A DNA stretch of 44,595 nucleotides from assembly GCA_947632415.1 (NCBI GenBank), contig CANRPB010000004.1, positions 1 to 44,595 on the forward strand, written 5' to 3'. The stretch is from an uncultured Bacilli bacterium (GTDB lineage Bacteria; Bacillota_I; Bacilli_A; RF39; UBA660). The translations under genes were made by a program, and so were the position numbers. Positions 2,575 to 29,023 of this stretch are shown in pieces; the first letter of the stretch is position 1; every line of letters begins with the position of its first letter. The notes below the pieces were generated by a model, which made no database searches, had not been told where the DNA came from, and saw nothing but the letters and a program-made list of their open reading frames with translations.

Positions 2575-2851
2575 GAATAAAATAACTTGTAACTAGTCCG
2601 CATGTTATCGCCCATAATGTAGCATTTTTTATTTTATCGGCTGTAGGTCTTTTTAAAATAAAATCGCGGATAAGCGCAATGGTATTAGCTACAAGCCAAA
2701 GGCCTTGACCAATAATAAAGGATGCGCCGACGGTTACTTGACCGATAATGGTTAGCATAAGAACGAATAACTGTATGTTTTCCCATACTTTCATTTTTTT
2801 ATTTGTTTTCGTATCAATCTCATGAAATTTAATATTTTTAATTTCTTCCAT
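2570..2851 (-). CDS. Small membrane protein, 93 aa (start corrected to MEEIKN)
   Basis: SD-like GAAAGGAAAAACACC before ATG; two hydrophobic segments. Confidence 0.7.
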   Translation of the reverse strand: MEEIKNIKFHEIDTKTNKKMKVWENIQLFVLMLTIIGQVTVGASFIIGQGLWLVANTIALIRDFILKRPTADKIKNATLWAITCGLVTSYFIL

Positions 2852-2892
2852 GGTGTTTTTCCTTTCTCTTTTCAATAATAGAATTATAGTAT

Positions 2893-2921
2893 AAAGGGAC
2901 ATGTATTAATGTCCCTTTTTT
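2893..2921 (-). terminator. Intrinsic terminator
   Basis: AAAGGGACAT...ATGTCCCTTT with flanking A/T runs. Confidence 0.75.
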
Positions 2922-2933
2922 GGTACAGTCTAA

Positions 2934-3647
2934 TTATTCTTTAAGCCATTTTTCATAATTATTTTTTACGATGCGCCACGCTTTACCACTAGGTCGTTTT
3001 TCAATTTTACGCCATTGTCCATGTGCATTTGAATAACAAGCTTTTAATATTTGCGCTTCGATTAAAGAGTCTTCAAGTGCTGTATGGCATTCCGCATAAT
3101 GCGGGTTTTTAGTAAGAAAAGCATAGGCAATTTCAGCGCTAGTTTTGGGGTTCCCTTTTTCCGTCATTAAATTGTTAGTTATTATAAACTTAAAATATCG
3201 TTTTGTATTCATAATTGTTTGCGCCGCAACGTGTTGAATACAATACCATTTTACGTCATAAGGCGCGAAAAATGGATGAAAGCCATTAGAACATTGTTCA
3301 ATAGTAGCATTGAGCGCATTACGATCAAAAGCCGCATTGTACGCCCATACTTCTTTAATTTTGTATTCTTCACAAGCCGCCTTGAAGTCTTGCCATATTT
3401 CAAGCATAGTTTTAACTTCAAGTTTTCCCTCTAGCATTTGTGCATGATAATCTGTAAGTTTATAAGCGTAATAGGCGCTTGACATATTACCAAAATCACC
3501 ACGCCACGTTTCTGCTACTAATGCACGATAGCTTTTTACAATATCAAACTTTTCATCAATAACGATGAATGCGAAGTCATATACTCGTAATGTTTTAGAC
3601 TGATTAACGTTTCCTAACGTTTCTGTGTCAAGTACGATTCTATACAT
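2934..3647 (-). CDS. DEDD-family 3'-5' exonuclease (RNase T / DnaQ-like)
   Basis: Corrected start MYRIVLDTETLG; DxE motif, YNAAFDRNAL, C-terminal HTALEDSLIEAQIL. Confidence 0.85.
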   Translation of the reverse strand: MYRIVLDTETLGNVNQSKTLRVYDFAFIVIDEKFDIVKSYRALVAETWRGDFGNMSSAYYAYKLTDYHAQMLEGKLEVKTMLEIWQDFKAACEEYKIKEVWAYNAAFDRNALNATIEQCSNGFHPFFAPYDVKWYCIQHVAAQTIMNTKRYFKFIITNNLMTEKGNPKTSAEIAYAFLTKNPHYAECHTALEDSLIEAQILKACYSNAHGQWRKIEKRPSGKAWRIVKNNYEKWLKE

Positions 3648-3823
3648 AAATAAATCCTTCCTTCTTGTTTTTCTTGACATGATAAGAATAAATGAATATG
3701 ACCTAAAAAGCAATAAAGAAATCTTGAATTAAATATGTAGATTAAGTAACAAGAAAGTAACAAAAATATGTCAAGGTCTTGATAAATAAATGGTCATTTT
3801 AATCGGTGAATGGTTTTAGGAAT

Positions 3824-3885
3824 TGTGCAGATTCTATGAATTTTTTAATAAATCTCTTGACTTTTTCTCTGAGTTGTGGTAAAAT
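3824..3885 (+). promoter_or_regulatory. Direct-repeat box + rightward orphan promoter
   Basis: TGTGCA-GATTC-TATGAA, 16-nt gap, TTGACT (3857)-N17-TAAAAT (3880). Confidence 0.7.
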
Positions 3886-3946
3886 TTTTTCGCCCGACTG
3901 CGGATTTATTATTTTTTTTTCTGTAAAAGAATTTTAAATAAAAAAT

Positions 3947-3975
3947 AAAGTCCATAAATGGACTTTATTTTTTAT
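3947..3975. terminator. Bidirectional intrinsic terminator
   Basis: AAAGTCCA-TAAA-TGGACTTTATTTTTT. Confidence 0.8.
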
Positions 3976-3989
3976 TATTATTTTTAAAA

Positions 3990-4109
3990 CTAATGTTTTA
4001 CAATAAAAACTTTTTTGTTATAATGCATTGTTGCTATTTGTATTGCCTCATCCCAACTATTTACGATTCTTGAAAGTTGTGGAGAGCCATAAACGATAAC
4101 CTGATACAT
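3990..4109 (-). CDS. 39-aa small protein (MYQVIVYGSPQLSRIVNSWDEAIQIATMHYNKKVFIVKH), absent from ORF track
   Basis: Good SD (GGAAGG) upstream, uninterrupted frame, terminator downstream. Confidence 0.6.
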   Translation of the reverse strand: MYQVIVYGSPQLSRIVNSWDEAIQIATMHYNKKVFIVKH

Positions 4110-10894: not shown

Positions 10895-12100
10895 ATAGCA
10901 GAAAAATTAACTTGTGTAAAGTGCGGGCGTACTAAAGGAGAAAAAGAATTTTTTAAGATGCGGACAGGCAATCGTTGTGATATATGTAAATCCTGTTTAA
11001 CAGAACATATAGATAATAATAAACCTGAAACATTTAAATGGATACTTGAAAAATTTAATATTCCCTATATAGAAAAAATATGGTTTGATTATTGCAATCG
11101 TATTTTACAACAAAAAGGTCCTGCGGCATTCGGTCCAGCTTCTGTTATAGGTCAATATATACGCTCTATGAATATGGACCAATATAGAGAATATACTTAT
11201 GCGGACAGTGATAGACTTAATTTTGAAGCTAAAAAGAAAGAACAAGAAGCTGCGGCAAAACGTGAACAGATGTTTAATCCTGAAAAAGAAGCAGAATTAA
11301 AAGCTAAACTTGAATCAGGAGAAATATCACAAGCAGAATATAATACTCTTAGTTCAACAACTTATACAGCTCCCGCAGAAGAGGAACCCCGCATAAAAAA
11401 TTATTTTATGGAATATGAAATAAATGAAAATGATATAGCTGATAAATTAACAGATGAAGACCGTCTTTATTTAATATCTAAATGGGGTATTCATTATAGA
11501 CCTTCTGAATGGGTTACAATGGAAAAAATGTACAATAGATATGCGGAAGAATATGAATTAACTATTGACCGTGAAGAAACATTAAAGAAAATATGTAAGG
11601 TATCTCTTAAAGCAGATCAAGCTGTCGATGCGGGCGACACTATGACAGCTAAAAATTATATGAATATGCTGGATAGTTTGCGGAAGTCTGCTAAATTTAC
11701 TGAAGCGCAAAATAAAGAAGAGGAAGTGCGAGAGTATGATACGATTGGCGAGCTTGTTGCATTATGTGAACGAGAAGGCGGCATTATAGAGCAATTTCGT
11801 ATGGATTCAGATGAATATCCGCAAGATAAAATAGATTTAACTATTAAAGATTTACAAGCCTATAATCGTAATCTTGTAGTAAATGAACTTGGTTTAGGCG
11901 ATTTGATTGAATCTTATATTCAAAAGCTAGAAAGAGCGGAACAATCTGACCAAGATATGTTAGATGGTCTTATTACCACTGATGAGGAAGAAAAGGAGCA
12001 GCTACTTACCGATCAAGAAGCAGAAGACTTCCAGAAATTCTTAGAATCAGAATTAGAAGAAGAAGCTGAGCAACTCCTACATTCGATAGGAGAAGAATAA
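10895..12100 (+). CDS. Putative terminase small subunit (zinc ribbon N-terminus); probable ATA start
   Basis: SD AGGAGG at 10881-10886, 8 nt before ATA GCA GAA; position directly before large terminase; N-terminal CVKCGRTKGEKEFF...CDICKSC. Confidence 0.6.
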   Translation: MAEKLTCVKCGRTKGEKEFFKMRTGNRCDICKSCLTEHIDNNKPETFKWILEKFNIPYIEKIWFDYCNRILQQKGPAAFGPASVIGQYIRSMNMDQYREYTYADSDRLNFEAKKKEQEAAAKREQMFNPEKEAELKAKLESGEISQAEYNTLSSTTYTAPAEEEPRIKNYFMEYEINENDIADKLTDEDRLYLISKWGIHYRPSEWVTMEKMYNRYAEEYELTIDREETLKKICKVSLKADQAVDAGDTMTAKNYMNMLDSLRKSAKFTEAQNKEEEVREYDTIGELVALCEREGGIIEQFRMDSDEYPQDKIDLTIKDLQAYNRNLVVNELGLGDLIESYIQKLERAEQSDQDMLDGLITTDEEEKEQLLTDQEAEDFQKFLESELEEEAEQLLHSIGEE

Positions 12101-12438
12101 TGGCTTTAAATGATTTAGTACAAATGCGGGAAGCTAAAGTAAAAGATGCGGACTCCCGCAAAGGACAAATTATAGATCATCTAGATGATTTTAGACATCT
12201 TATCTCCTTTTGGAGAGTCTACCCAGATTTATTTATAGATTTTCTTTGTTCATTAAATCCGCATAATACTTTTCATTTTTTCTTTTATCAACGATTATTT
12301 TTGCGGGTCGCTATGCGGCACCAGTATGTATATGCGACATTTGTTAGAGCTTGGTCTAAATCTTTTATGTCCGTGCTTTGTTTAATGATTAAAGCAATAT
12401 TGTTTCCTGGTGCAAAATTATTCGTCGTATCAGGTGGT
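12100..12438 (+). CDS. terL: Terminase large subunit, exon 1
   Basis: ATPase N-terminus, Walker-A-like FVRAWSKSFMS, ...FVVSGG joins in frame with KEQSASILSDK of exon 2. Confidence 0.8.
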
Positions 12439-13337
12439 AAGTTTTATAACTAGGAGAGGAGTCAAGGTGGAATCTCAACTGACTTTTAGCCAAGATATTT
12501 TTGAAATCATAAATACTGAAGAAAAAGCATATTGGCTTGGTTTTTTAGAAGCTGATGGTTGTATACATAATGGTAATAATTATGATTATAGAATTGAATT
12601 AGGATTAAAAGAAGAAGATCTATATCATTTAGAAAAATTTAAAAACTTCATCGGAAAAGATAATAAAATATCTTACAGGAAACAGAGTAAATCCTATAGA
12701 TATAATTTTAGAAACAAAAAAGTTTGGAGCGATTTGATTGCATTAGGCTGCACTCCACAAAAAAGTTTGACGTTAGTATTCCCTTCTGTCGAACAAGTAT
12801 CAGATCAGTTTTTATTGCCTTTTTTAAGAGGATATTTTGATGGAGATGGATCGTTTTGGTATGAAAATAAATTTGGATTAAATATTTTAAGCAGTAAAGA
12901 CTTTTTGCAAGGATTAAAAGAAAGATACCAACTATTTTCTAATTTATCAATATATCCTATTCATTATGATAGACCTGATAAAGGTCAAAGACTTCAAACT
13001 AGTAATAAAATGATAGTTAATAAATTTTTATTTGATATATATAATAATGCAACCATATATCTAGATAGAAAGTTTCAAAAATATCAGAATTATCTTGCCA
13101 CCATATAATAGTAATATTATATTAGTAACCGCGGAATTAAGCGAGAAGGCTGAGATGCTAACTCGAACCGAAGGCTATATGAAATATAGTCAGGGGCAAC
13201 GCATAGTAGGTGAAAAGATATAATCCTACCATGAGGCCGCGGCTCCTTTTTTAAAAAGGATGAAAATATATGCTGAACTTGTACGAACAGGAAGTATAAG
13301 AACTAAAGGATAAAAAGCCTTTAGGATAACAATATTG
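12439..13337 (+). mobile_element. Group I-like intron carrying a LAGLIDADG ORF
   Basis: Interrupts terL; predicted 5' exon ends in U and intron ends in G; 3' segment contains GAAAAGATATAATCC and other structured core-like sequence. Confidence 0.7.
12467..13108 (+). CDS. LAGLIDADG homing endonuclease (GTG start)
   Basis: Two motifs AYWLGFLEADGCI and LPFLRGYFDGDGSF; SD GGAGAGGAG. Confidence 0.85.
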   Translation: MESQLTFSQDIFEIINTEEKAYWLGFLEADGCIHNGNNYDYRIELGLKEEDLYHLEKFKNFIGKDNKISYRKQSKSYRYNFRNKKVWSDLIALGCTPQKSLTLVFPSVEQVSDQFLLPFLRGYFDGDGSFWYENKFGLNILSSKDFLQGLKERYQLFSNLSIYPIHYDRPDKGQRLQTSNKMIVNKFLFDIYNNATIYLDRKFQKYQNYLATI

Positions 13338-14756
13338 AAAGAGCAGTCTGCATCAATTTTATCAGATAAAGTATCTGAACTTTGTAGGCTGATTCCAGCA
13401 TTAGAAAAAGAAATTATTTGGGATACAAGAGGTACTAAAGCCCGCACGTCTCAAACTAAAGATAGCGTTATTTATACTTTTAAAAATGGTTCTACCCTTC
13501 AGAATATCGCAGCAAGAGAAACCACTCGTGGTCGTCGTTTCCAAGGGGGACTAATGGAAGAATGCGTAGGTATAGATCAAGATATTCTAAATGAGGTTAT
13601 TATTCCTACTCTTAATGTTAGTCGTATGGTTAATGGAGAAGTAGATCCTTTGGAAAAATTAAATCAGAGTCAGATATTTATTACAACAGCGGGCTATAAA
13701 AATACATTTTCATATGAAAAGTTAATCCAATTTCTCTGTCAAATGACAGCTCGTCCAAACAATACAATGATTCTAGGCGGTACTTGGAGAGTGCCAATGG
13801 TAGAAGGATTACTCGCGAAAGACTTTGTTCGTCAGCTCAAAATGGATGGCACATATAATGAAGCTTCTTTTGAGCGGGAATATGAGAGTAAGTGGTCTGG
13901 TGATGTAGAAAGCGCGTTCTTTAACTCTGATCGTTTTGCAAAATTGCGACAACTTAATCTTGCAGAAGAAAAATATAATAATCGTATAAATAAAAAAGGT
14001 TATTATTTACTTGGTGTTGACGTTGGTCGCTTTGATTGTACAACTGAAATTGTAGTAATTAAAGTAACTCCAACAGCGACAGGAGCACCATTAAAACAAA
14101 TAGTCAATTTATATACTATTGAAGCTGAAAACTTTATTATGCAAGCTCGTAAAATAAAAACTATTTTTAATAATTTTAAATGCAAAGCTGCGGTTGTTGA
14201 CGGTAATGGTCTTGGCGCGGGTCTTATAGACCTATTGGTAATAGATGATACTGATAGTGATACAGGAGACTTTTTGCCAGGATTAGGCGTCATTAATGAT
14301 GAGAAAGACGCACAAGGACATTGGCGTTATAAGCCATTACAAACATCAGATACTATCCATGATGCGCTATATATTATGAAAGCTAATACACCTTTAAATT
14401 CTGAGATGTACGCATATTGTAAACAACAAATAACAGATGGAAAATTACGATTTTTAATAAATGAAAATATAGCACGTGATAAGTTAATGGCGCAAGCGCA
14501 AGGTCAAAAAATGTCTCCAGCAAAACGTGCAGAATATATAAGGCCTTATGTGGCTACGACAGTTTTGCGCGAACAAATGATGAACTTAGTTGAAGAAAAT
14601 GAAGGCGCGCATATTATTCTTAAACAAAGTTCTCGCAAAATTCGCAAGGATAAATTTTCTGCTTTAATTTATGGATTATATTATTGTAAACTCCAAGAGG
14701 ATAAAAGAAAGAAACGTAAAGGCTTAGATATAAGTAAATTAATGTTATATAATTAA
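13338..14756 (+). CDS. terL: Terminase large subunit, exon 2 (ATPase remainder + nuclease domain)
   Basis: GGLMEECVG, IFITTAGYKN, LLGVDVGRFD, AAVVDGNGLGAGLIDLL. Confidence 0.85.
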   Translation, partial: KEQSASILSDKVSELCRLIPALEKEIIWDTRGTKARTSQTKDSVIYTFKNGSTLQNIAARETTRGRRFQGGLMEECVGIDQDILNEVIIPTLNVSRMVNGEVDPLEKLNQSQIFITTAGYKNTFSYEKLIQFLCQMTARPNNTMILGGTWRVPMVEGLLAKDFVRQLKMDGTYNEASFEREYESKWSGDVESAFFNSDRFAKLRQLNLAEEKYNNRINKKGYYLLGVDVGRFDCTTEIVVIKVTPTATGAPLKQIVNLYTIEAENFIMQARKIKTIFNNFKCKAAVVDGNGLGAGLIDLLVIDDTDSDTGDFLPGLGVINDEKDAQGHWRYKPLQTSDTIHDALYIMKANTPLNSEMYAYCKQQITDGKLRFLINENIARDKLMAQAQGQKMSPAKRAEYIRPYVATTVLREQMMNLVEENEGAHIILKQSSRKIRKDKFSALIYGLYYCKLQEDKRKKRKGLDISKLMLYN

Positions 14757-18097: not shown

Positions 18098-18607
18098 ATG
18101 GCGACAGAGATTAAGCGCGAAGGCTACGGTCAGGTAGAACCTAACCACCTTGCGGCGCCTCGCAATGGTCAAGTTTATGCTCAACTTCCCGCTGACGAAT
18201 CAATTGATGTGCTAGAAAATGGTATGTTCGTCCACTATAATTATGCAGAAGGTAAATGCCAATTTACTGGTGATGGCCCTGTTATGATGGTTTACAATGA
18301 AGAGAAACTTTATGACGAGCGTCATCAAATGCACAAGGATTTTGCTCAAAAGAAAGCTGACGCTTATGATGGAGTAATTGTTCCTCGTGTATTTGCCCTT
18401 TCTGTTGGTGATATTTGGACTACTAATACCCTCAAAGATGCTACCTATAATGCCAAAGATAAACTTAAGATTGGTACTACAGGTCTTCTTGAGTCTGGCG
18501 AAGCTGGAGCGGGTGAGCCTGTAATTCAAGTCGTTAAGGAAACAACTCTTCCTGACGGCCAAAAAGCTCTTAAACTACAAGTAATTGGCATTGGTGCCAG
18601 CGCGTAA
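18098..18607 (+). CDS. Putative capsid decoration/stabilisation protein
   Basis: 169 aa between scaffold and MCP, strong SD. Confidence 0.6.
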   Translation: MATEIKREGYGQVEPNHLAAPRNGQVYAQLPADESIDVLENGMFVHYNYAEGKCQFTGDGPVMMVYNEEKLYDERHQMHKDFAQKKADAYDGVIVPRVFALSVGDIWTTNTLKDATYNAKDKLKIGTTGLLESGEAGAGEPVIQVVKETTLPDGQKALKLQVIGIGASA

Positions 18608-18628
18608 TCTGAGAAGGAGGATAGCTAA

Positions 18629-19666
18629 ATGGAATATAAAGATCTATTACAATTAGCCCGCATTGCGGTTAAAGCTGATGCTTCCAATCCTGTAGCATAC
18701 TCCTTCGGGGACGAGAAATTTTCTCTTGACCAAGTGAATGAGGCTCTTGCTACAGAGTTTAGTAAGCTTGCGGGCGATTATGCGTCTTATCGTGAAAATA
18801 AAAATGTCATTTTCCGCTTAATTGAAGAGACTATTAATGAGGTTCTTCCTCGTAAGGTTATGGATCAATATATGCAATTTGCGGACGTCCGCACAGTTGC
18901 GCAAGGGGAAAAAGCTATATTTAAAGTTCGTATTTCTGAGTTTGCGAAGAAACGTGCTAAGACTTTTGTCACTCGTGTTGGTCTAGCTGGTCGTTATGAA
19001 GTCTTTATGCTTGATGGTTACTCTCTTGAAGTACAAACTGCTGCTTTTGGTGGAGCTGCTCGTATTGGGTTTGAAGAGTTCTTAGACGGTCGTATCCAAT
19101 TCTCTGATCTTACTTCTGTACTATTGGAGGGTATGGATGAATTTATTTATAAAGAGATTGCTAAATCTCTTGCAGGCTTAGTTGAAGGTCTTCCTGAAAT
19201 TCAAACAGCTACATTTGCTGGTTTTGATGAAGATACTATGGATACCCTTCTTATGATTGCTGATTCTTATGGTCATTCAGCAATTTATTGTACTTTTGAA
19301 TTTGCAGCTAAGATGCTTCCTGAAGAAGGTTGGGCATCTGGTGAGATTAAGAATGAACGTTGGAATGTTGGTTATCTTGGTACTTATAAGGGACACCAAG
19401 TAATTATTCTCCCACAGTCTATGGAAGACGAAACTAATACAACTAAAGTTCTTGATCCTTCTTATGCATATATTATTCCTGTTGGCTCTGAAAAGCCAAT
19501 TAAATTAGTCTTTGAAGGCGCTGCATGCGTTCGTGAGGTTGAAGATAACGACGATTGGTCTCGTGACCTTCAAACTTATCATAAGTATGGTATTACCACA
19601 ATTAGTAACAATTGGATGTGCGTATATCAAAATACTAACCTCAAAAAGGCTGTAAAGGGGGAATAA
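18629..19666 (+). CDS. Major capsid protein, 0-frame product
   Basis: 345 aa; position, strong SD, HK97-fold-like composition. Confidence 0.8.
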   Translation: MEYKDLLQLARIAVKADASNPVAYSFGDEKFSLDQVNEALATEFSKLAGDYASYRENKNVIFRLIEETINEVLPRKVMDQYMQFADVRTVAQGEKAIFKVRISEFAKKRAKTFVTRVGLAGRYEVFMLDGYSLEVQTAAFGGAARIGFEEFLDGRIQFSDLTSVLLEGMDEFIYKEIAKSLAGLVEGLPEIQTATFAGFDEDTMDTLLMIADSYGHSAIYCTFEFAAKMLPEEGWASGEIKNERWNVGYLGTYKGHQVIILPQSMEDETNTTKVLDPSYAYIIPVGSEKPIKLVFEGAACVREVEDNDDWSRDLQTYHKYGITTISNNWMCVYQNTNLKKAVKGE

Positions 19667-20097
19667 CCCCCACTCCTAGCCTCCCCGTACAACAAGTAGA
19701 GGTTGGTAGTGGGGTTCAGATAGGTTCTTATGATGCTTCAACTGGTTTTGCGGGATCAGCTGAAACAGATGGAGATACAATAACTGTAACTGGTACTTTT
19801 ACTAAACAAGAAGATGCTAATGAACAGCTTAAATTCCCACAAAAAGAAGCAACTGGTTATTATTTACCCCTTACTTTAACGGGAACTAAAGGACAAGCAG
19901 TTAAGCGTATTTCTAATAATAAGATACTTGTCTTTGGAGAGACTAATGATACAGAAACCACTATGAACTTAGTTCTTTCAGTCGATCAGTCAAATCCCAC
20001 CATAGAATTTATGGTATATGAGAATAAACAAAAGGCGCTTGCGAATGAAGAAGGTATTAAGCTCACAATAAATTGTAGTGGTTGTTCATTTTCTTAA
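19657..20097 (+). CDS. C-terminal extension of MCP in the -1 frame (predicted ribosomal frameshift; fusion ~489 aa)
   Basis: G_GGG_GAA_TAA slip site at 19657-19666; -1 frame open to 20097 with no nearby start codon; encodes VQIGSYDASTGFAGS...YYLPLTLTGTKGQAVKR...FGETNDTETTMNLVLSVD, homologous to the 25363 ORF. Confidence 0.85.
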   Translation, partial: GGITPTPSLPVQQVEVGSGVQIGSYDASTGFAGSAETDGDTITVTGTFTKQEDANEQLKFPQKEATGYYLPLTLTGTKGQAVKRISNNKILVFGETNDTETTMNLVLSVDQSNPTIEFMVYENKQKALANEEGIKLTINCSGCSFS

Positions 20098-20107
20098 TAA
20101 ATTAGAT

Positions 20108-20154
20108 GAAAAGGAGTGATGGGAGGCGTTTTCTCCCTCCTCCTTTTCTTTTTT
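20108..20154 (+). terminator. Intrinsic terminator after the MCP extension
   Basis: GAAAAGGAG...GGGAGG...CCTC-CTCCTTTTCTTTTTT. Confidence 0.8.
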
Positions 20155-20174
20155 CGAGATACAAGGAGAGAAAT

Positions 20175-20762
20175 ATGTTAGCAGATAGCACATTAGTTCC
20201 TGTACGTAATTTAACTAATCATACTGTTGGTTATAAAGTACCTGAACTAAATGTCCGTAGAGTTTTCCAAGCATCGGAGGTTAAAAAGCTTCCAGTAGAG
20301 GAAATTCGTAAACTTAATTATATGCCAGGTGGCCGCAATCTTCTTCTTGGTTATCTTGCGGTAGATAATAAAGATATGCGAGCAGAGCTTGGAGTTGATG
20401 CTGATGCAGTCGAGTTTGACTGGACAGAAGCAGATGTAGATAAAGCATTAACTACAGAACCTATTGAAGTTCTTTTAGATGCTTTAGACTTTGGCCCTGA
20501 TGGTATTAAAGAAATGTTAATTAAGAGGGCTGTTGATCTTGAAATTGATGATGCGTCTAAGTGCGAAGCTATTTCTGAACGTACTGGCGCTGATGTAACT
20601 AATAAAATTAAAATGAAAAAGTTGGCTCGTGAAGCAGATAAAAAAAATAAAGATGAAGTAACTGAGGCTGCTAATGCAAAAGTAGCTCCTGCTCCTAAGA
20701 GACGTGTAGCTACTAAACCTACTACTACTGCTAAACCTGCTTCAACTGTTGTAAAGGAGTAA
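20175..20762 (+). CDS. Virion-associated hypothetical protein, 195 aa (start corrected to MLADST)
   Basis: SD AAGGAGAG; Lys/Ala/Pro-rich C-terminus. Confidence 0.65.
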   Translation: MLADSTLVPVRNLTNHTVGYKVPELNVRRVFQASEVKKLPVEEIRKLNYMPGGRNLLLGYLAVDNKDMRAELGVDADAVEFDWTEADVDKALTTEPIEVLLDALDFGPDGIKEMLIKRAVDLEIDDASKCEAISERTGADVTNKIKMKKLAREADKKNKDEVTEAANAKVAPAPKRRVATKPTTTAKPASTVVKE

Positions 20763-20781
20763 GTTAGGGGGATATATTAAA

Positions 20782-21276
20782 ATGGATGAAACTAATCCCC
20801 AAGAATTTACTAGCTTTAAAGAAGTATATGATATGTTTTTATCTGGTATTACTGATGATATGTTTTTAGAACTTACACCAGAAGATACCAAAGAATTATT
20901 ACAAGAGATTTTAATCGCAGCTATTCCTTATTTTGAATATCCTAGTCATGATTTATTTGATTATAATTTGCAGGAACAAAGATTTAATTGGAAACTTTCA
21001 AATGAAGAAATTATTATTTTGCGGCAATATATGATTGCTCAATGGATTGGCTACCAATTAGCAACTATTGATTTAATTAAACAGAAATATTCTGGAAGTG
21101 ATTTTAAATTTACTTCTCAAGCATCTCATATTAAACAACTCAAAGAGATGAAAAAAGAATATGAAACTCAAGGTTTTCATCTACAAAGGGTTTTTCGTAG
21201 ACGTCATCGCCGCAAAGATGGAACAATTGCTTCATTATTAAATCAGATTATGGAGCCTCCAAGAGATGATGACTAA
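20782..21276 (+). CDS. Putative head-tail connector/completion protein
   Basis: 164 aa, gene order. Confidence 0.55.
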   Translation: MDETNPQEFTSFKEVYDMFLSGITDDMFLELTPEDTKELLQEILIAAIPYFEYPSHDLFDYNLQEQRFNWKLSNEEIIILRQYMIAQWIGYQLATIDLIKQKYSGSDFKFTSQASHIKQLKEMKKEYETQGFHLQRVFRRRHRRKDGTIASLLNQIMEPPRDDD

Positions 21277-21571
21277 TTATGAAGTAGAAATTGATAATAA
21301 TGCAATTAAATTTAATCTAAATCGACTAGGTAATCAAATATATAAAACTTTATGTTTGCGGGAAGAGGGTAAAGATTGGCAAAAGCCTTTAGAAACTATA
21401 ATGGTTGAACTTTTAGGAATGGCTAATTTGTTTCCGCAACAAGAAAAATTATGTTCTTTAGCATGTAAAATACAAGGTCTTACAAATAAAGAAATTGATT
21501 TTATGTTATATAGACGAACAGTTTTTGAATGTTGTTCTCTTGTAAATAAAATAAAAGATGCTATTGATTAG
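21266..21571 (+). CDS. Hypothetical protein, 101 aa
   Basis: Overlaps upstream gene by 11 nt. Confidence 0.6.
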   Translation: MMTNYEVEIDNNAIKFNLNRLGNQIYKTLCLREEGKDWQKPLETIMVELLGMANLFPQQEKLCSLACKIQGLTNKEIDFMLYRRTVFECCSLVNKIKDAID

Positions 21572-21580
21572 GAGGCCATC

Positions 21581-22711
21581 ATGTCCGCAGAAACATTAAT
21601 AGCGAGACTTCAACATGATGGCGGGAATGCCTTAGGACGTATAAATAAACAAAAGTTACGTTCTTTACAAGCAGCTTTAAAAAATGATTATAATTCTCGT
21701 CTTATAAAAACTCCTAAAAAAGCAGCTTGGCCGGCATTAATAAATGCTAAAGATATTAAAAGTGATTATGACAAGAAATATATTTCAGTAGAATTTGATG
21801 CAGGCTTAGAGTCTGGAGATGTTTTTGAAATATTAGACGATCATACTCATTGGATGATTTATCTTCCTGTTTTAACGGAAACCGCTTATCTGCGATCAGA
21901 GATAGTAAGATGTAGATATAGTATTGAAATTGAAGACGAAAAATATTGGGTTTATTTTCAAGGACCGACAGAGACGGATTTGCGGTGGTATATTAAACAG
22001 GGAATTAATTTTAATGAATTAAATTTATCAGGAACCATTTATATTAAAAATACTCCTAAAACTAAAGAGTTTTTTAAACGATTTACACATATTAAATTAG
22101 ATGGACATATGTGGGAAGTACAAGTGACTGATTCTATTACTGTTCCTGGTATTATTGAGCTTGAAATACAAGAATATTATGATAATACTCCTGCAGAACT
22201 TCCTAGTATCCATAAAGATGAAGAAGATCCTCATATTTGTATTATTGGCACTGATATAGTAAAACAAAATACAATTATTGGGTATGAAATTGAACCTCGT
22301 TATTATGATCCAAAAGCAGAATGGAAAGTTAGTGGTAATAATAGAGTAAAAATTGATAGAATCATAGATAATGGGCGTATGTGTGAAGTACGAATTTATG
22401 ATGGAGCTATTCGTAATTTTTTCGTGCAATACGGAGATAATGAACCATTAGAGGTCATGATTGATATAGAAGAGCCGTATATTAAAGGTCCACAGTTAGT
22501 GTATCCTTATGATACGCATGAATACTGGACTGCTTGTAAAGATGATATATTAGTATTTTCTTCAGACAGCGATCTTGTTAAAGTTACTCAATTGACAGAT
22601 AATTCTTGTAAAGTAAAGATAAAAAGTAGTAAAAAAGGTGAATTTATTTTGCGGGCTACTGCAGAGGATGATACTGTTTATGAACTTCTTGTAACGATTG
22701 GCTCGTTCTAA
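21581..22711 (+). CDS. Putative head-closure protein with C-terminal Ig-like-looking domain
   Basis: 376 aa, SD AGGAGG; C-terminus VYPYDTHEYWTACKDDILVFSSDSDLVKVTQLTDNSCKVKIKSSKKGEFILRATAEDDTVY. Confidence 0.55.
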   Translation: MSAETLIARLQHDGGNALGRINKQKLRSLQAALKNDYNSRLIKTPKKAAWPALINAKDIKSDYDKKYISVEFDAGLESGDVFEILDDHTHWMIYLPVLTETAYLRSEIVRCRYSIEIEDEKYWVYFQGPTETDLRWYIKQGINFNELNLSGTIYIKNTPKTKEFFKRFTHIKLDGHMWEVQVTDSITVPGIIELEIQEYYDNTPAELPSIHKDEEDPHICIIGTDIVKQNTIIGYEIEPRYYDPKAEWKVSGNNRVKIDRIIDNGRMCEVRIYDGAIRNFFVQYGDNEPLEVMIDIEEPYIKGPQLVYPYDTHEYWTACKDDILVFSSDSDLVKVTQLTDNSCKVKIKSSKKGEFILRATAEDDTVYELLVTIGSF

Positions 22712-22720
22712 GGAGTTAAC

Positions 22721-23359
22721 GTGCATGTAGTTGGACATAAACTAGCTAAGAATTTTAAAAGTTCTTTTCTTTCTTGTGAAAAAGATCAAGAAGCTATATG
22801 GAAACGATTATTTGTTGAAAGTGAACCGTATAGTAATAAATTAAAAAGATTGTTAATTATAAATACTCCTAATTGTTTAGATGAACGAGAGCATCAGTGG
22901 GATCATTTAATTCAACAAGCTTCAGTTAAGAAGTTACATGATGATGGATATATTAAAGCTGTTCCTAAATTAGCATTTGGGGAACATGAAGAAGTGAAAT
23001 CTTATATTATGCTTGAGTTTGATGACTTTGTACCTACTTCTAATCCTGAATATCGAGATTGTATAGTAAGTTTTACTATTATATGTCAATTAGATTATTG
23101 GGAACTTGAAGATTATAAGCTACGCCCGCATCAAATAGCAGGTTATATTGATGGTATTCTTAATGAATGTCGTTTAACGGGTATAGGTACTTTGAAGTTT
23201 TTAGGTGCTTCTCAAATAGTTTTAAATGAATATTTGGGTGGATTAGTTCTTCGTTATGTTGCTACTCATGGGCATGATGATGAAGAAGCATTAAATCCAG
23301 ATGTTCCTGCTCCAGAAAAGCTTGGCAGTAGGGATTATGATGATATTGACCTAGGTTAG
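22721..23359 (+). CDS. Putative tail completion/terminator protein
   Basis: 212 aa (GTG start), gene order. Confidence 0.5.
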   Translation: MHVVGHKLAKNFKSSFLSCEKDQEAIWKRLFVESEPYSNKLKRLLIINTPNCLDEREHQWDHLIQQASVKKLHDDGYIKAVPKLAFGEHEEVKSYIMLEFDDFVPTSNPEYRDCIVSFTIICQLDYWELEDYKLRPHQIAGYIDGILNECRLTGIGTLKFLGASQIVLNEYLGGLVLRYVATHGHDDEEALNPDVPAPEKLGSRDYDDIDLG

Positions 23360-23367
23360 AGGTTAAT

Positions 23368-24126
23368 ATGGCGATAAAAGGAGATGCAGTTGGACTATAT
23401 CTTGTTTCTAAAGATATAATAGTCCCAGAGTGCAATATTGTATTAACTCAGCCAACAGTAAAAGAAGTATTGCAATTTGGAGAAACTAATTTTCTTCAAA
23501 TTATACAATATTTGAGTTATACAGAACGATCTTTTCAGATATTAAAACAAGAAAATACTGAATTACAATTATTAGATGAATTTCAGTTATTTTTATTAAT
23601 TTATCATAATGAACCTATTTTAAGATCTCAAATAGAAAGATTTTTTGAGTTAATTTTTCCTAAATATACTGTAATTTTTACAGATAATAGTATTGATTTT
23701 AAAGATATAGAAGATAATGGGGTTAAAGGCCGCATAAATCCTTTTAATTTTGAATCATTACAAAAACTTTGTTTAGATTTATTTCTTCCTATTGGACAAA
23801 AAGAACCGGAATATAATCCAGTTTCAAGTAAAGCCCAAGAAATTGCGGAGAAATTAAAAAAAGGCAGGGAAGAAAAAGCCCGTAGGGAGGGGAAGCAAGA
23901 AGATAGCTCCTCTCTCTATGGGACTGCTATGTCTATTATTGCTATTGGATGCGGGATACCTTTTCAAGTATTGTATGAGTGTACGATATTTCAATTAAAT
24001 GATTTATTTATGCGGTATACTGCTAAAATGGCTTGGGATCAGTATATTAAAATGGCTACGATTCCATTTTCTGATTCTTCTAAATTAGAAGCTCCTAATA
24101 TGTGGACTTCTAATATTTATGGTTAA
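23368..24126 (+). CDS. Putative tail assembly protein (chaperone-like)
   Basis: IIVPECNIVLTQPTVKEVLQFGE pattern; 252 aa. Confidence 0.45.
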   Translation: MAIKGDAVGLYLVSKDIIVPECNIVLTQPTVKEVLQFGETNFLQIIQYLSYTERSFQILKQENTELQLLDEFQLFLLIYHNEPILRSQIERFFELIFPKYTVIFTDNSIDFKDIEDNGVKGRINPFNFESLQKLCLDLFLPIGQKEPEYNPVSSKAQEIAEKLKKGREEKARREGKQEDSSSLYGTAMSIIAIGCGIPFQVLYECTIFQLNDLFMRYTAKMAWDQYIKMATIPFSDSSKLEAPNMWTSNIYG

Positions 24127-24200
24127 TAAACCACAGCCTTGTGTGGATTATTATAGAGGGTAAAATTAAATATTGCGCGATATTTGATATTACCAAAAAG

Positions 24201-24226
24201 GGAAAATTTGTACGTACAAGATTTCC
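24201..24226 (+). other. Near-perfect hairpin in the leader of the major tail protein gene
   Basis: GGAAAATTTGTAC/GTACAAGATTTCC. Confidence 0.6.
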
Positions 24227-24250
24227 GATTTGAAGAAAGGGGACTACAGC

Positions 24251-25324
24251 ATGAGATTCGGTGTTCGCGAGATCTGCGATGTAGTATTTAAACCTCTCAG
24301 CTCTGTTGATATTGGTAATCAACACTTTGATGCCGGTCAACCTGTACTCTACCTTGACACCGCAAAAACTTCTACTCTTGAAGGTGCTTCTACAACCGTC
24401 TATGCACAAGGCGGTAAAGGTAATCCTCGCTTAATCGGTTGGGACGGCGAGAAAACTATTACATTTACTGTAGAAGATGCCCTTATGAGTCCAATCAGTT
24501 TTGCAATGCTTTCTGGTGCTGGTGTTATCCAAGGTATGGGTGAACTTGATGCGGATGATGCAAGGAAAATTTATGTCCATACTTCTTATGACTTAACTGT
24601 TGAGAAGCAAGATGGTAAGTTTGTTGCTAAATTAACAGATGTTGAACGTAATGGTGCAACTCTTGTTGTCACTAAAGAAGCTCCTGTTTATCCTATTCTA
24701 TTAGATTCTGCGGGAGCACAAGCTGCTTATCTTTCTGCTATTACAGAAGACCAAATTACAGTTGAAGGTGAAGCACCTGAAAATCCTGTTAAAGTCAATA
24801 CTGAACGTGGAGAGATTGATGCCAGTGGGCGTACTATTGTATTTGAATTAGCTTCTGATGAACCTGGCGATCCTCGTCTTGATGAAGCGATTCAAGTAGG
24901 ACAGGCTGTACGTATTGACTGTTATACAGTTCATACTGAAGGTGCTACTGAAATTCAAATTGATGCTAGTACATTTGCTGGTTATTACTATATTGAAGCT
25001 TCTACCTTATTCCGTGATGAAGCTACTGGTGTAGATATGGCTGCTGAATTTGTCATTCCACGTGGTAAGATTCAATCTAACTTTACATTTACAATGGCTA
25101 ACAGCGGCGATCCTTCAACATTTACTTTCACAATTGATGCATTCCCTGCGTATACTAAATTTAACAAGAATAAAAAGGTTATGGCTATTCTTCAAGTTCT
25201 TGATGTTGAAGGTGACTCTCATAACTATCGTACAAAGGATATTATCGGTCACGAAAACCGCACTAGTGATGCTGATGTAGACGAATGGTATACGAAGTCA
25301 ATCTTCGTTGATTCGGGGGAATAG
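24251..25324 (+). CDS. Major tail protein, 0-frame product (start corrected to MRFGVRE)
   Basis: SD AAAGGGG; 357 aa; position and beta-rich composition. Confidence 0.7.
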   Translation: MRFGVREICDVVFKPLSSVDIGNQHFDAGQPVLYLDTAKTSTLEGASTTVYAQGGKGNPRLIGWDGEKTITFTVEDALMSPISFAMLSGAGVIQGMGELDADDARKIYVHTSYDLTVEKQDGKFVAKLTDVERNGATLVVTKEAPVYPILLDSAGAQAAYLSAITEDQITVEGEAPENPVKVNTERGEIDASGRTIVFELASDEPGDPRLDEAIQVGQAVRIDCYTVHTEGATEIQIDASTFAGYYYIEASTLFRDEATGVDMAAEFVIPRGKIQSNFTFTMANSGDPSTFTFTIDAFPAYTKFNKNKKVMAILQVLDVEGDSHNYRTKDIIGHENRTSDADVDEWYTKSIFVDSGE

Positions 25325-27402
25325 TTGCCGACCCTGTCGCTCCAGAATTAAAGAAAGCAACAGTGGCAACCGGCGTAAAGCTCGGGACCTATAATACGAG
25401 TGACGGTTTCTCTGGGACCGCCACTCTTTTAGAGAACGAGATTACTGTAACTGGTACACTATATAAACAACCTGATACAGTTAATGAAGTATTAGGTTTT
25501 CCATCTGAAATGGCAACTGGATATTATCTTCCTATACAATTAACAGGTATTAGAGGACAAGCTGTAAAGCGTATGCCTGATGGTAAAGCTAATGTATTTG
25601 GTAAGACAGGTGACAGAAATACTGTAATGAATATAATCTTTGCAGTTGATCCTGAGAATCCTAATATAAATCTTAAGATTTATAGTACGTTAGAAGATGC
25701 TGAAACTGATACAGATGGGTTAGAAGTTACTATTAATTGTGAGGAATGCGTTTTTCAAGCTCCAACAGCAGAGCCTTTTAGCAAGGAAGAATTAGGTTCT
25801 ATTGAAGCTGGTTCTCATACTTTAGAGGATTTAGTAGGAGAAAATTATGGATATGTTCTTGATGAACAAGCGCATACTATCACTGCTACTGGTGAGTTAA
25901 AGAAGATTGATGATTATCAGGATATGTTCCCTGGAGAGTCTGAAATAACTTCTTATTTCTTACCTGTTAAACTTCTAGGAAAAGATGGCACAACTGTAAA
26001 GAGTACTACTCTTCTTGGTACTGAAAAAACTTTGACATTTGGCCAAACTGGTGATGAAGAAGGGACTATGGTCTTAATCATGGCTATTGATCCTCAATCA
26101 CCTACAAGAGAATTAACTATTACTCCAGCTGCGGTTGGATATAGTTTGAATGCGGAAACTAATTATACAGTTGATGCATCAGCTTGTGATTTTGAAGGAT
26201 ATATACCACCTATAGTAAATGTTATTGCTCCAGTAGGTGATAAAATTTATTGCGGAAAACAAGCAAATAATATTCAACAAAATCTTGTTGTAGGGGATTC
26301 TGAAATTACTGGTCAATTATTCTATTTTGATAGTTTCCCAGAAGCATTCCCTGCCAATGAATCATTACAACATGGTAACTATCTAGTTCTTGACTTTAGT
26401 GCGGAGCCTGCGGATACTATTATTAAGGTAGAATTGCAGGGTGGAGACACTGTAATGAAAGAACCTGTTGTTGTAGATGATGGTTGGTGTATTTTCCATG
26501 TTACAAGTTCAGAACAAAAACTTCATGTAATTGGTGAATATAATCATCAGACTTATGATAAGGTTTATGATTTAACCCATTTAACATTAAATCGCCATAT
26601 TCCTAAGTTTACATCTATCGAAGTAAGAGATCCGCAAGGTGTTCCTTATCTTCATTATGTAAATGATCTTAGTGATTATGTAGAAGATGTAACTTGTACT
26701 GTAGATGGTCAGCACATTACACTTGACGGTGGCGTGTTAAAGCAGTTCTCAAAAGCTTATGGTGGTAAAAATGCTTATGCGGTGCCTTTCACAATGACTG
26801 GCGCGGCAGACAAGTATGTAACTTGGAAACAACTTGATGGTAAGTGGGAGAAAGAAGGAACTTTAATTGAAGATCCTTATCAACCTATTGTTCAAGTTGG
26901 TCCAGATAACTACACAGAACGTCGTTTTAAACTTTGGGATTCAGCGGAAGCTGTCACAGCTACTGAAGATACCAGTTACATGTATGTAATTGATGCTAGC
27001 AAATGCACTTTTATTCCTTATGATGATGCAGTATATCTTAAGTTAGCAAACGATACTATCTATGACCATAATGTAGAAAACTTTGGTAATTTTAATGTTC
27101 AGGCAACTACTATTACAGGTATAGCTAAATACTGTAAAGATGTAACTCCATTTACAGAACAATATCCTGAACGCAAAGATGGGTATTATCTACCATTAGA
27201 CATTTTTGGTGGCAAATGGGAAGGTAATCAGTTCCGTGTAAAATGGACTGATAATGATTGGTCTGAATGGATGTCATTAGACGATAAAGGTCTATTGTTA
27301 TGGCTAGGCAAAGATAATATTATATTAACTAATATTGAAACTAAAAATGCTACAGGAACAGTACAACAATATACTGTTAATATTGAAAAGGAATCTAATT
27401 AG
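25315..27402 (+). CDS. -1 frame extension of the major tail protein with about five tandem Ig-like-looking domains (predicted fusion ~1050 aa)
   Basis: G_GGG_GAA_TAG slip site at 25315-25324; -1 frame reads IVADPVAPELKKATVATGVKLGTYNTSDGF continuous with the 25363 ORF. Confidence 0.85.
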   Translation, partial: GGIVADPVAPELKKATVATGVKLGTYNTSDGFSGTATLLENEITVTGTLYKQPDTVNEVLGFPSEMATGYYLPIQLTGIRGQAVKRMPDGKANVFGKTGDRNTVMNIIFAVDPENPNINLKIYSTLEDAETDTDGLEVTINCEECVFQAPTAEPFSKEELGSIEAGSHTLEDLVGENYGYVLDEQAHTITATGELKKIDDYQDMFPGESEITSYFLPVKLLGKDGTTVKSTTLLGTEKTLTFGQTGDEEGTMVLIMAIDPQSPTRELTITPAAVGYSLNAETNYTVDASACDFEGYIPPIVNVIAPVGDKIYCGKQANNIQQNLVVGDSEITGQLFYFDSFPEAFPANESLQHGNYLVLDFSAEPADTIIKVELQGGDTVMKEPVVVDDGWCIFHVTSSEQKLHVIGEYNHQTYDKVYDLTHLTLNRHIPKFTSIEVRDPQGVPYLHYVNDLSDYVEDVTCTVDGQHITLDGGVLKQFSKAYGGKNAYAVPFTMTGAADKYVTWKQLDGKWEKEGTLIEDPYQPIVQVGPDNYTERRFKLWDSAEAVTATEDTSYMYVIDASKCTFIPYDDAVYLKLANDTIYDHNVENFGNFNVQATTITGIAKYCKDVTPFTEQYPERKDGYYLPLDIFGGKWEGNQFRVKWTDNDWSEWMSLDDKGLLLWLGKDNIILTNIETKNATGTVQQYTVNIEKESN

Positions 27403-27411
27403 TTAATGCGC

Positions 27412-27448
27412 GGGAGTGCGCGGGAGACCGCGTGCTCCCATTTTTTTT
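27412..27448 (+). terminator. Strong intrinsic terminator
   Basis: 12-bp stem GGGAGTGCGCGG-GAGA-CCGCGTGCTCCC + A + T8. Confidence 0.9.
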
Positions 27449-27469
27449 ATTTATGAAAGGAGGTGTGAC

Positions 27470-29023
27470 ATGACTATATTAATAGACAGTATTGGCGATT
27501 TTGGTAATAGAGTAGAAGAAAGATTAAGGACTCATAGTGGACTTGGTAATATTACTTATTTACATTATCATAGCAGTATTCCCCCATTTCCAGATGCTGG
27601 AGTATTTATAAATCAAGCTCAAATTATAACTAGTAGACAAAAAACATTGTTTGCACAGAGATTTAATGCCTCGCAAAAAAATTATGGAGCAGGGACACAA
27701 TATACTTTTAAACAGATTAAAGGATTAATAAACCGTATAGGAACTAGTACTAACATCGGTTCTCAAATTGTTCCAGATTTAGAAAACAATATTAAAGTAG
27801 AAACTGCTGCGGATATTAAGCTTAATGTAGGTGGCACAGAAATGAGTATTGCGGAAATTAGCAGTGCTTTACGCAATAAAGGAAAATTAGTCGGTTTAGA
27901 CACTCAAGCATTATCCAATAGAATAGAACAAGGTGTTGAAACTATTCTTCGTTCTTTAGAAGCAAATAGTCAATATGAATTAGCTGAAGCTGTTTTGGCG
28001 GGATATGCAGGAGGAGAAATCAGCTATCTTCCTCCAGAATATGGCACTATTGGAAAAGCAGTATTATCTACGGGGGAGTTAGCAAAAGCTAAGAGTGTAT
28101 TAGAAGCATATTCTGCAGAAATCAAAAGAGGTCTTAGTATTATGGCTGAACATTCTGTGGGAGGAGAATTGACAGTAGGCTATCAAGAAGGATTAGCAAA
28201 AGTTGTTAGTTCTTTTAATGCTATTGGCGGCTTATTAGGAGAAATGGCAGTTCTTTTAGCAGCAGGCGCGGGTACTATTAAAATTGAAGATGCATTACAA
28301 ACTTTAAACAAGAATTTAACTAATATAGTTGCTGCTAATGGAGGAAAAGTAATTCCGCATTGGACTGCACAAAATACAGATATAGAAGGTCATCAAGGAA
28401 AAGAAGATGTACGACTTGAGTGGCGAGGTCATAAAAATGGGGGACAATTAAATTTAGTATTTGGCGCAAGTGTAAAGGTTAGACATGGTAAAGCTTTTAA
28501 AGCAAATAAAGGAAGACCTGTTACAGGATTTGTTGCAGTTAATAGCACAATGTATTCATTATTGCAAGAATTAGAAAGGTATATAGGAGGTATTACTTTA
28601 CAAGCGCAAGCTGCTATTGCTTCTTTAGCTGAAAAGACAAATACTACTAATTGGTGGTATATGTTGCGGCTATTAGGTGTTTTAACACTTGTAGATGCTC
28701 TTGCTGGCCAAGGGGCTATAGGTAATGGAGGTTATGATTTCGCTTCCTTGCTTATTGTTAATAATAAAATTTATTCTGTTGCAAATATAATAGAAGAAGC
28801 ATTTAATGCTAATGATTTAATGGTTAAAAATATGCATCATGGTTTTACTGTTGATGCTCCTTCTCTTGGTGGGTTAAGAGATGATAATACAGCACAATCT
28901 CAATCAGAAAATAGTGTATTTAAAAAAGCGTATAAACGTAACGTATATGCTTATACTATTCTACAAAGAACAAAAATTAAAATTACTTTAAATTTAGGAT
29001 ATATGTTTAATGACGTGATATAA
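27470..29023 (+). CDS. Hypothetical virion/tail-region protein, 517 aa
   Basis: SD AAAGGAGG; start corrected to MTILIDS. Confidence 0.65.
   Translation: MTILIDSIGDFGNRVEERLRTHSGLGNITYLHYHSSIPPFPDAGVFINQAQIITSRQKTLFAQRFNASQKNYGAGTQYTFKQIKGLINRIGTSTNIGSQIVPDLENNIKVETAADIKLNVGGTEMSIAEISSALRNKGKLVGLDTQALSNRIEQGVETILRSLEANSQYELAEAVLAGYAGGEISYLPPEYGTIGKAVLSTGELAKAKSVLEAYSAEIKRGLSIMAEHSVGGELTVGYQEGLAKVVSSFNAIGGLLGEMAVLLAAGAGTIKIEDALQTLNKNLTNIVAANGGKVIPHWTAQNTDIEGHQGKEDVRLEWRGHKNGGQLNLVFGASVKVRHGKAFKANKGRPVTGFVAVNSTMYSLLQELERYIGGITLQAQAAIASLAEKTNTTNWWYMLRLLGVLTLVDALAGQGAIGNGGYDFASLLIVNNKIYSVANIIEEAFNANDLMVKNMHHGFTVDAPSLGGLRDDNTAQSQSENSVFKKAYKRNVYAYTILQRTKIKITLNLGYMFNDVI

Follow-up and report, generated by a model that had tools for sequence, protein, structure and literature searches.

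The window, that is, the whole 44,595-nt stretch of DNA analysed here, carries a major capsid protein (MCP) gene and, further downstream, a tail tube protein gene. Both end in G-GGG-GAA followed by a stop codon, and behind each of them lies a long reading frame that is open in the -1 frame (Table 1).

Table 1. Features of the window, and recoding signals at MCP and tube gene ends of relatives
Feature	Location	Strand	Description
MCP gene	18629..19666	+	345 aa by standard decoding; HK97-fold model and homology to PJN02 MCP, gene order shared
MCP slip site and stop, G-GGG-GAA-TAA	19657..19666	+	Read directly; AA upstream also gives A_AAG_GGG
Capsid extension, -1 frame	19660..20097	+	145 codons; linker, then beta-sandwich domain
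Imperfect stem-loop, possible stimulator	19668..19714	+	Starts 7 nt past GGG; L031 stem at same position
Terminator-like hairpin 3' of capsid extension	20121..20137	+	Consensus scan; L031 has a counterpart at this position
Tail tube protein gene	24251..25324	+	357 aa by standard decoding; PHROG 2729; profile match to PDB 8k98/9jgh
Second slip site and stop, G-GGG-GAA-TAG	25315..25324	+	Read directly; TCG GGG GAA TAA in L031, L032
Tail tube extension, -1 frame	25318..27402	+	694 codons; several repeats of the capsid-extension domain; contains the ORF from GTG 25363
Terminator-like hairpin 3' of tube extension, strong	27412..27439	+	12 pairs, 9 G-C, T-run
In-frame UAG at capsid end	L017:9454, L018:6527		431 codons after stop
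In-frame UAG at capsid end	L036:11054, L039:2503		333 codons (L036) and 328 codons (L039) after stop
In-frame UGA at capsid end	L011:11039		319 codons after stop
AAACCCT	MCPs of L006/L007, L009; tube genes of L004, phAss-1		
GGGAAAT	MCP of L059		
GGGAAAA	Tube gene of L042		
GGGGGA before stop	Window, L031, L032, L039, L018		

Both genes upstream of the extensions encode bona fide virion structural proteins. An AlphaFold model of the MCP (20 sequences, mean pLDDT 73.7) matched encapsulins and capsids of the HK97 fold, the best at E 9e-9, and homologues of the protein, among them the annotated MCP of Bacillus phage PJN02, occur in SPbeta-type large siphophages. The tail tube protein belongs to a PHROG described as virion structural protein, and its family profile matched PDB chains named tail tube protein with E 3e-4. 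Homologues of the window MCP and tube were recovered by tblastn in SPbeta-like, Sundance, PJN02, EF1 and phAss-1 records, where the annotated gene order is conserved; such homologous proteins in conserved order suggest that the window phage belongs to the SPbeta-type large siphophages. Elsewhere in the window (12100-14756), the large terminase gene is seemingly split by an insertion, possibly an intron, with an ORF at 12410-13108 that by eye resembles a LAGLIDADG-type endonuclease.

The last codons of the MCP gene read GTA (19652-54), AAG (19655-57), GGG (19658-60), GAA (19661-63) and TAA (19664-66), and the -1 frame behind it contains no stop from 19639 until TAA at 20095-20097. A slip into GGA at 19660 would add 145 codons to 344 aa, giving a 489-aa fused product; such an extended capsid protein had been proposed in the original prediction, and its coordinates, codon count and product length all proved correct when the sequence was re-read. 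The claim that the extension has no start codon holds up to about codon 101, where the earliest in-frame ATG, GTG or TTG lies inside the domain. Markov resampling of the region, repeated 20,000 times, never gave a frame open as long. The predicted fusion junction is KAVK-GGITPTPSLPVQQVEVG, with residues K-G-G-I-T-P-T spanning the slip.

The tail tube gene ends GAT TCG GGG GAA TAG. The ORF at 25363 had previously been taken as a gene of its own; its frame is open already from 25312, -1 relative to the tail tube gene, and runs back through the tube slip site, which makes it a second -1 extension and not a separate gene. The reported likeness between this ORF and the capsid extension is borne out: the capsid extension shares 46% identity over 145 aa with the first tube-extension domain (E ~1e-38) and about 31% with the second, later ones matching more weakly. 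Here the predicted fusion junction is SIFVDS-GGIVADPVAPELK, with residues V-D-S-G-G-I-V-A across the slip. The nine-base sequence GGGGGAATA has just two plus-strand occurrences in the window, at 19657 and 25315, the two gene ends, and its presence together with an open -1 frame at both the capsid and the tube gene makes the finding a pair. When ORFs of the window were scanned for a slippery heptamer behind which the -1 frame continues for 40 codons or more beyond the stop, capsid and tube were the only recognised structural genes listed, along with three short ORFs overlapping long open frames. Terminator-like hairpins are placed after both extensions and not after the plain genes, an arrangement that fits one transcription unit; positions 18500-28000 gave no Rfam match.

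AlphaFold modelled the capsid extension (7 sequences) as a beta-sandwich with pLDDT 82.6 and pTM 0.78. Its sequence had no match in Pfam, PHROG or PDB sequences, and as sole query against IMG/VR and phage records it found nothing. The best PDB match to the model had an E of 0.022, no TM value exceeded 0.42 and Ig domains appeared among the weak matches only; two BFVD matches fell below 0.001, neither with a functional name. The Ig-like label previously attached to the domain is therefore not established, there being no Pfam, PHROG or PDB-sequence match and no PDB structure with E below 0.02; judged from the model, an Ig-like fold is possible. A domain resembling the tube extension (~30% identity) was also observed in a hypothetical protein of Eggerthella phage LE2-3 (MW679026.1; L026 5953-6399); no other annotated phage in the collection had one.

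Relatives provide the comparative evidence. A rabbit-gut Bacilli MAG, L031, carries an MCP 92% identical to that of the window. The gene for it ends GTG AAG GGG GAC TAA, and the -1 extension behind it shares 79% identity with that of the window. Conservation in relatives had been put forward as a check on the capsid frameshift, which passes it: L031 keeps GGGGGA, stop and extension, with GGGGGA and the stop unchanged while neighbouring wobble bases differ. Because A_AAG_GGG of the window corresponds to G_AAG_GGG in L031, the heptamer is not essential and the common element is G_GGG_GA-N before the stop; AAAGGGG was rejected as the conserved heptamer. Read in the -1 frame, the capsid extensions of the window and L031 differ at 25, 15 and 84 first, second and third codon positions, with a pN/pS of 0.18, while the other two frames give dN/dS above 1.7. 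Purifying selection thus acts on this DNA in the -1 frame only.

The tube genes of L031 and L032 each have a -1 extension as well, 74% and 82% identical to the window's, respectively, and dN/dS between the window and L032 is 0.16 over 694 codons. The L032 MCP gene ends CGT GGA GAG TAA and has neither slip site nor extension, indicating that the two features come or go together.

The stem-loop downstream of the capsid stop had been suggested as a stimulator of the slip. Its presence and strength are confirmed: the 50 nt that follow the stop fold at -25.3 kcal/mol, with z from about -4.0 to -4.7 for 50-55 nt but only -0.7 over an 86-nt stretch. At the other slip sites, pairing mostly starts 4-8 nt past the site too, a position that by itself is weak evidence, with stems weaker than that of the window MCP. 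Unextended genes of the clade have even stronger post-stop hairpins, which undercuts the stimulator role and led us to reject stem strength as a clade-wide frameshift signal. For the capsid stem-loop itself, a stimulatory role appears plausible.

We surveyed 91 distinct MCP and tube gene ends of SPbeta-type siphophage relatives from viral, MAG and phage records, counting -1 ORFs of at least 70 codons as long and slippery sequences within four codons of the stop. A slippery sequence was present at 12 of the 14 ends with a long -1 ORF versus 1 of the 77 others (Fisher p ~4e-12, the ends not being phylogenetically independent), and +1 ORFs among the 91 ends showed no association with slippery sequences. 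The lone exception among the 77 is the L018 tube gene, ending TTG GGG GAA TAG, whose extension comprises 33 codons. The long -1 ORFs of L071 and L051, which lack a slip site, were set aside: in the former the open frame starts a single codon ahead of the stop and is probably the next gene, and in the latter the tube gene is interrupted by an inserted ORF.

The standard tandem heptamer X_XXY_YYZ, on which the tRNAs of both P and A site can re-pair in the -1 frame, is matched by AAACCCT, GGGAAAT and GGGAAAA in relatives and by the window MCP (A_AAG_GGG), but not by the window tube (T_TCG_GGG) or the L031 MCP (G_AAG_GGG). The third tube-extension domain has similar counterparts in the capsid extensions of L006 and L009 (E ~1e-7 and 1e-6, respectively), so that one domain family occurs on head and tail by way of different slip sites. 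Many relatives have no extension. Directly 3' of the unextended capsid genes of L004, L005, L014 and L016 lie ORFs that by eye are glycosyltransferase-like, perhaps another way to alter the capsid surface.

In L017/L018, L036, L039 and L011, an in-frame stop separates the capsid from a linker and a beta-helix-like domain (Table 1). No other in-frame TAG was found in 2700-4000 aligned residues of L017/L018, L036 and L039, and no other in-frame TGA in the aligned genes of L011; with the codon otherwise absent in frame, recoded codons were rejected as an account of these cases. The part beyond the stop is under purifying selection in L017/L018 (pS 0.126, pN 0.008). The simplest reading is that these capsids are candidates for programmed stop-codon readthrough in a tailed-phage capsid protein. 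A further route is seen in L012, where a Big_2 domain is fused in frame. In L008, L033, L012 and L013, the frame past the MCP TAG is open for 22-28 codons and has the conserved end ...PDSLFLDP-stop, possibly a short readthrough tail or the leftover of a lost domain.

Codon use varies among these phages. TGA stands at conserved tryptophans (code 4) in many relatives (L003-L009, L012-L016, L033-L037 and L039) and is not used in this way by L031, L032 or L017/L018. In-frame TAG aligns mostly with Glu in L044 (JAFXOY010000124.1), L038, L046, L053, L055, L056 and L062, with 34 E, 11 Q and 11 D of 115 in L044, and mostly with Gln in L054, L057 and L058. The L044 contig also carries a tRNA with a CUA anticodon and a long variable arm (L108:4329-4421, minus strand) that does not resemble tRNA-Gln or tRNA-Glu.

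For the open frames, the common motif, the homology of the extensions, the selection in the -1 frame, the conservation in relatives and the HK97-fold and tail-tube identities, the best explanation, and one that we hold to be very probable, is that -1 slippage at G-GGG-GAA-stop of the capsid and tube genes yields a minority of extended, decorating subunits. For the capsid gene this agrees with the frameshift of the original prediction. In the proposed mechanism, peptidyl-tRNA-Gly would sit on GGG and a fraction of ribosomes would move one base back to the overlapping GGG, read GGA in place of GAA, miss the stop and continue through the extension; at the window MCP, tandem slippage on A_AAG_GGG would be an alternative. 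The stop comes directly after the codon that follows GGG, and a stop located 3 nt past the slip site was reported to matter strongly in pea enation mosaic virus (PMC5009743). G_GGG_GAA is non-standard in that A-site tRNA-Glu re-pairs poorly on GGA, so slip efficiency could be low. The main products would be the plain capsid and tube proteins, with forms of 489 aa and 1050 aa in the minority. We infer that some of the subunits in the virion bear the added domain, which would put related beta-sandwich domains on the outside of head and tail, where they may bind host-surface or mucus glycans loosely. By analogy, low-affinity surface binding from head and tail is their likely role.

The same extensions might instead be genes in their own right that yield free decoration proteins, with translation beginning at a start of their own or resuming by reinitiation past the upstream stop. 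The GTG at 25363 in the tube extension, a GTG at the L059 capsid extension that overlaps the stop and has a possible ribosome site, and the deposition of the phAss-1 tube extension as its own CDS all point in this direction. However, the window capsid extension offers no start before codon 101, the tube extensions of L004, L018 and L039 have no start codon at all, the linker frames are open back through the slip site, and slippery sequences would have no reason to accompany the extensions; we regard separate genes as highly improbable.

A slip by the polymerase, adding one G to the run of five (or dropping two) before normal reading, would give the identical fused protein, and sequence cannot distinguish it from a slip by the ribosome. 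Yet five Gs make a short run, and AAACCCT, GGGAAAT and GGGAAAA at the gene ends of relatives suit tandem tRNA slippage instead, leaving transcriptional slippage very unlikely. One base missing from the G-run would look alike whether it arose as a sequencing error or marked a decayed in-frame fusion (pseudogene), but motif and break recur at two window genes and in the independently assembled L031, L032, L039 and L018, and purifying selection persists downstream of the break. Such an error or pseudogene is strongly disfavoured, to the point of being scarcely credible.

If ribosomal -1 slippage is correct, each of the two genes, which annotation would split, makes a virion protein in two forms, and the supposed separate gene is a 694-residue tail decoration. 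More broadly, it seems to us rather likely that in this gut and rumen siphophage clade the capsid and tube C-termini are docking points for exchangeable surface domains and that the expression route is exchangeable too, comprising single-glycine-tRNA -1 slippage at G-GGG-GA-N-stop, canonical -1 heptamers, UAG/UGA readthrough and plain fusion, with domain families moving between head and tail (the window family on both; the beta-helix on readthrough capsids and the phAss-1 tube). It has been suggested that recoding is merely an accident of how domains landed (PMC5009743). With a recoding route that varies, a position and outcome that persist, and close neighbours with and without extensions, the clade offers natural contrasts between selection for partial expression at a set ratio and such an accident of domain landing. 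GGGGGA before a stop is a candidate slip motif beyond the standard heptamer search.

It is already established that frameshifting can add domains to capsid and tail proteins, even to both in the same phage (PMC5009743). Frameshifting lengthens both the capsid and the tail-shaft protein of Listeria phages PSA, A118 and A500, with +1 at both genes in PSA and -1 at the coat and +1 at the tail in A118 and A500 (PMC5009743). PSA, the precedent originally cited for the window, is right in kind but uses +1; the -1 capsid cases are T3, A2, A118 and A500 (PMC5009743). As in these Listeria phages, the capsid and major tail genes of one phage would each have a longer C-terminal form through a frameshift at the gene end; unlike them, both window genes use a single -1 motif, GGGGGA before the stop, and the domain lies outside any searched sequence family. 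T3/T7 gene 10 and Lactobacillus phage A2 have a -1 frameshift near the capsid gene end, which in T3 and A2 adds an Ig-like domain (PMC5009743). The predicted minority capsid form with a C-terminal domain added by -1 frameshifting is of the same type, although slip site and domain differ and no same-system tail tube is reported for T3/T7 and A2 in PMC5009743.

In SPP1, gp17.1 and the frameshifted gp17.1* occur 3:1 in tails, and the added FN3 domain is dispensable (PMC6316719, PMC8718954); TpeX of the 936 phage Phi2R06A binds host cells (PMC6669499). The window tube would likewise carry a frameshift-added domain on a minority of its subunits. SPP1 differs in using +1 at CCCUAA and an FN3 domain, and TpeX is a BppA-like carbohydrate-binding module (PMC6316719, PMC6669499, PMC8718954), whereas the window tube extension spans 694 codons and consists of repeats of a domain also found on the capsid.

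Among named phages, the MCP closest to that of the window (48% identity) belongs to phAss-1 (L027, OQ749652.1). Like the window, its tube gene ends in a slippery sequence, A_AAC_CCT_TAA (AAAAACCCTTAA), followed by a 505-codon -1 extension (L027 8434-9948), which was deposited as a separate hypothetical protein, WIC39617.1, with its start at locus 8482; the word "frameshift" is absent from the phAss-1 paper (PMC10607447). Unlike in the window, this extension is beta-helix-like (Pfam Beta_helix), the capsid is unextended and TAG is Gln. Relative to the established systems, it is new that one -1 motif serves both genes, and new as well are this motif and a domain outside the searched families, the previously unnoticed examples, phAss-1 among them, and the variety of recoding routes within one clade.
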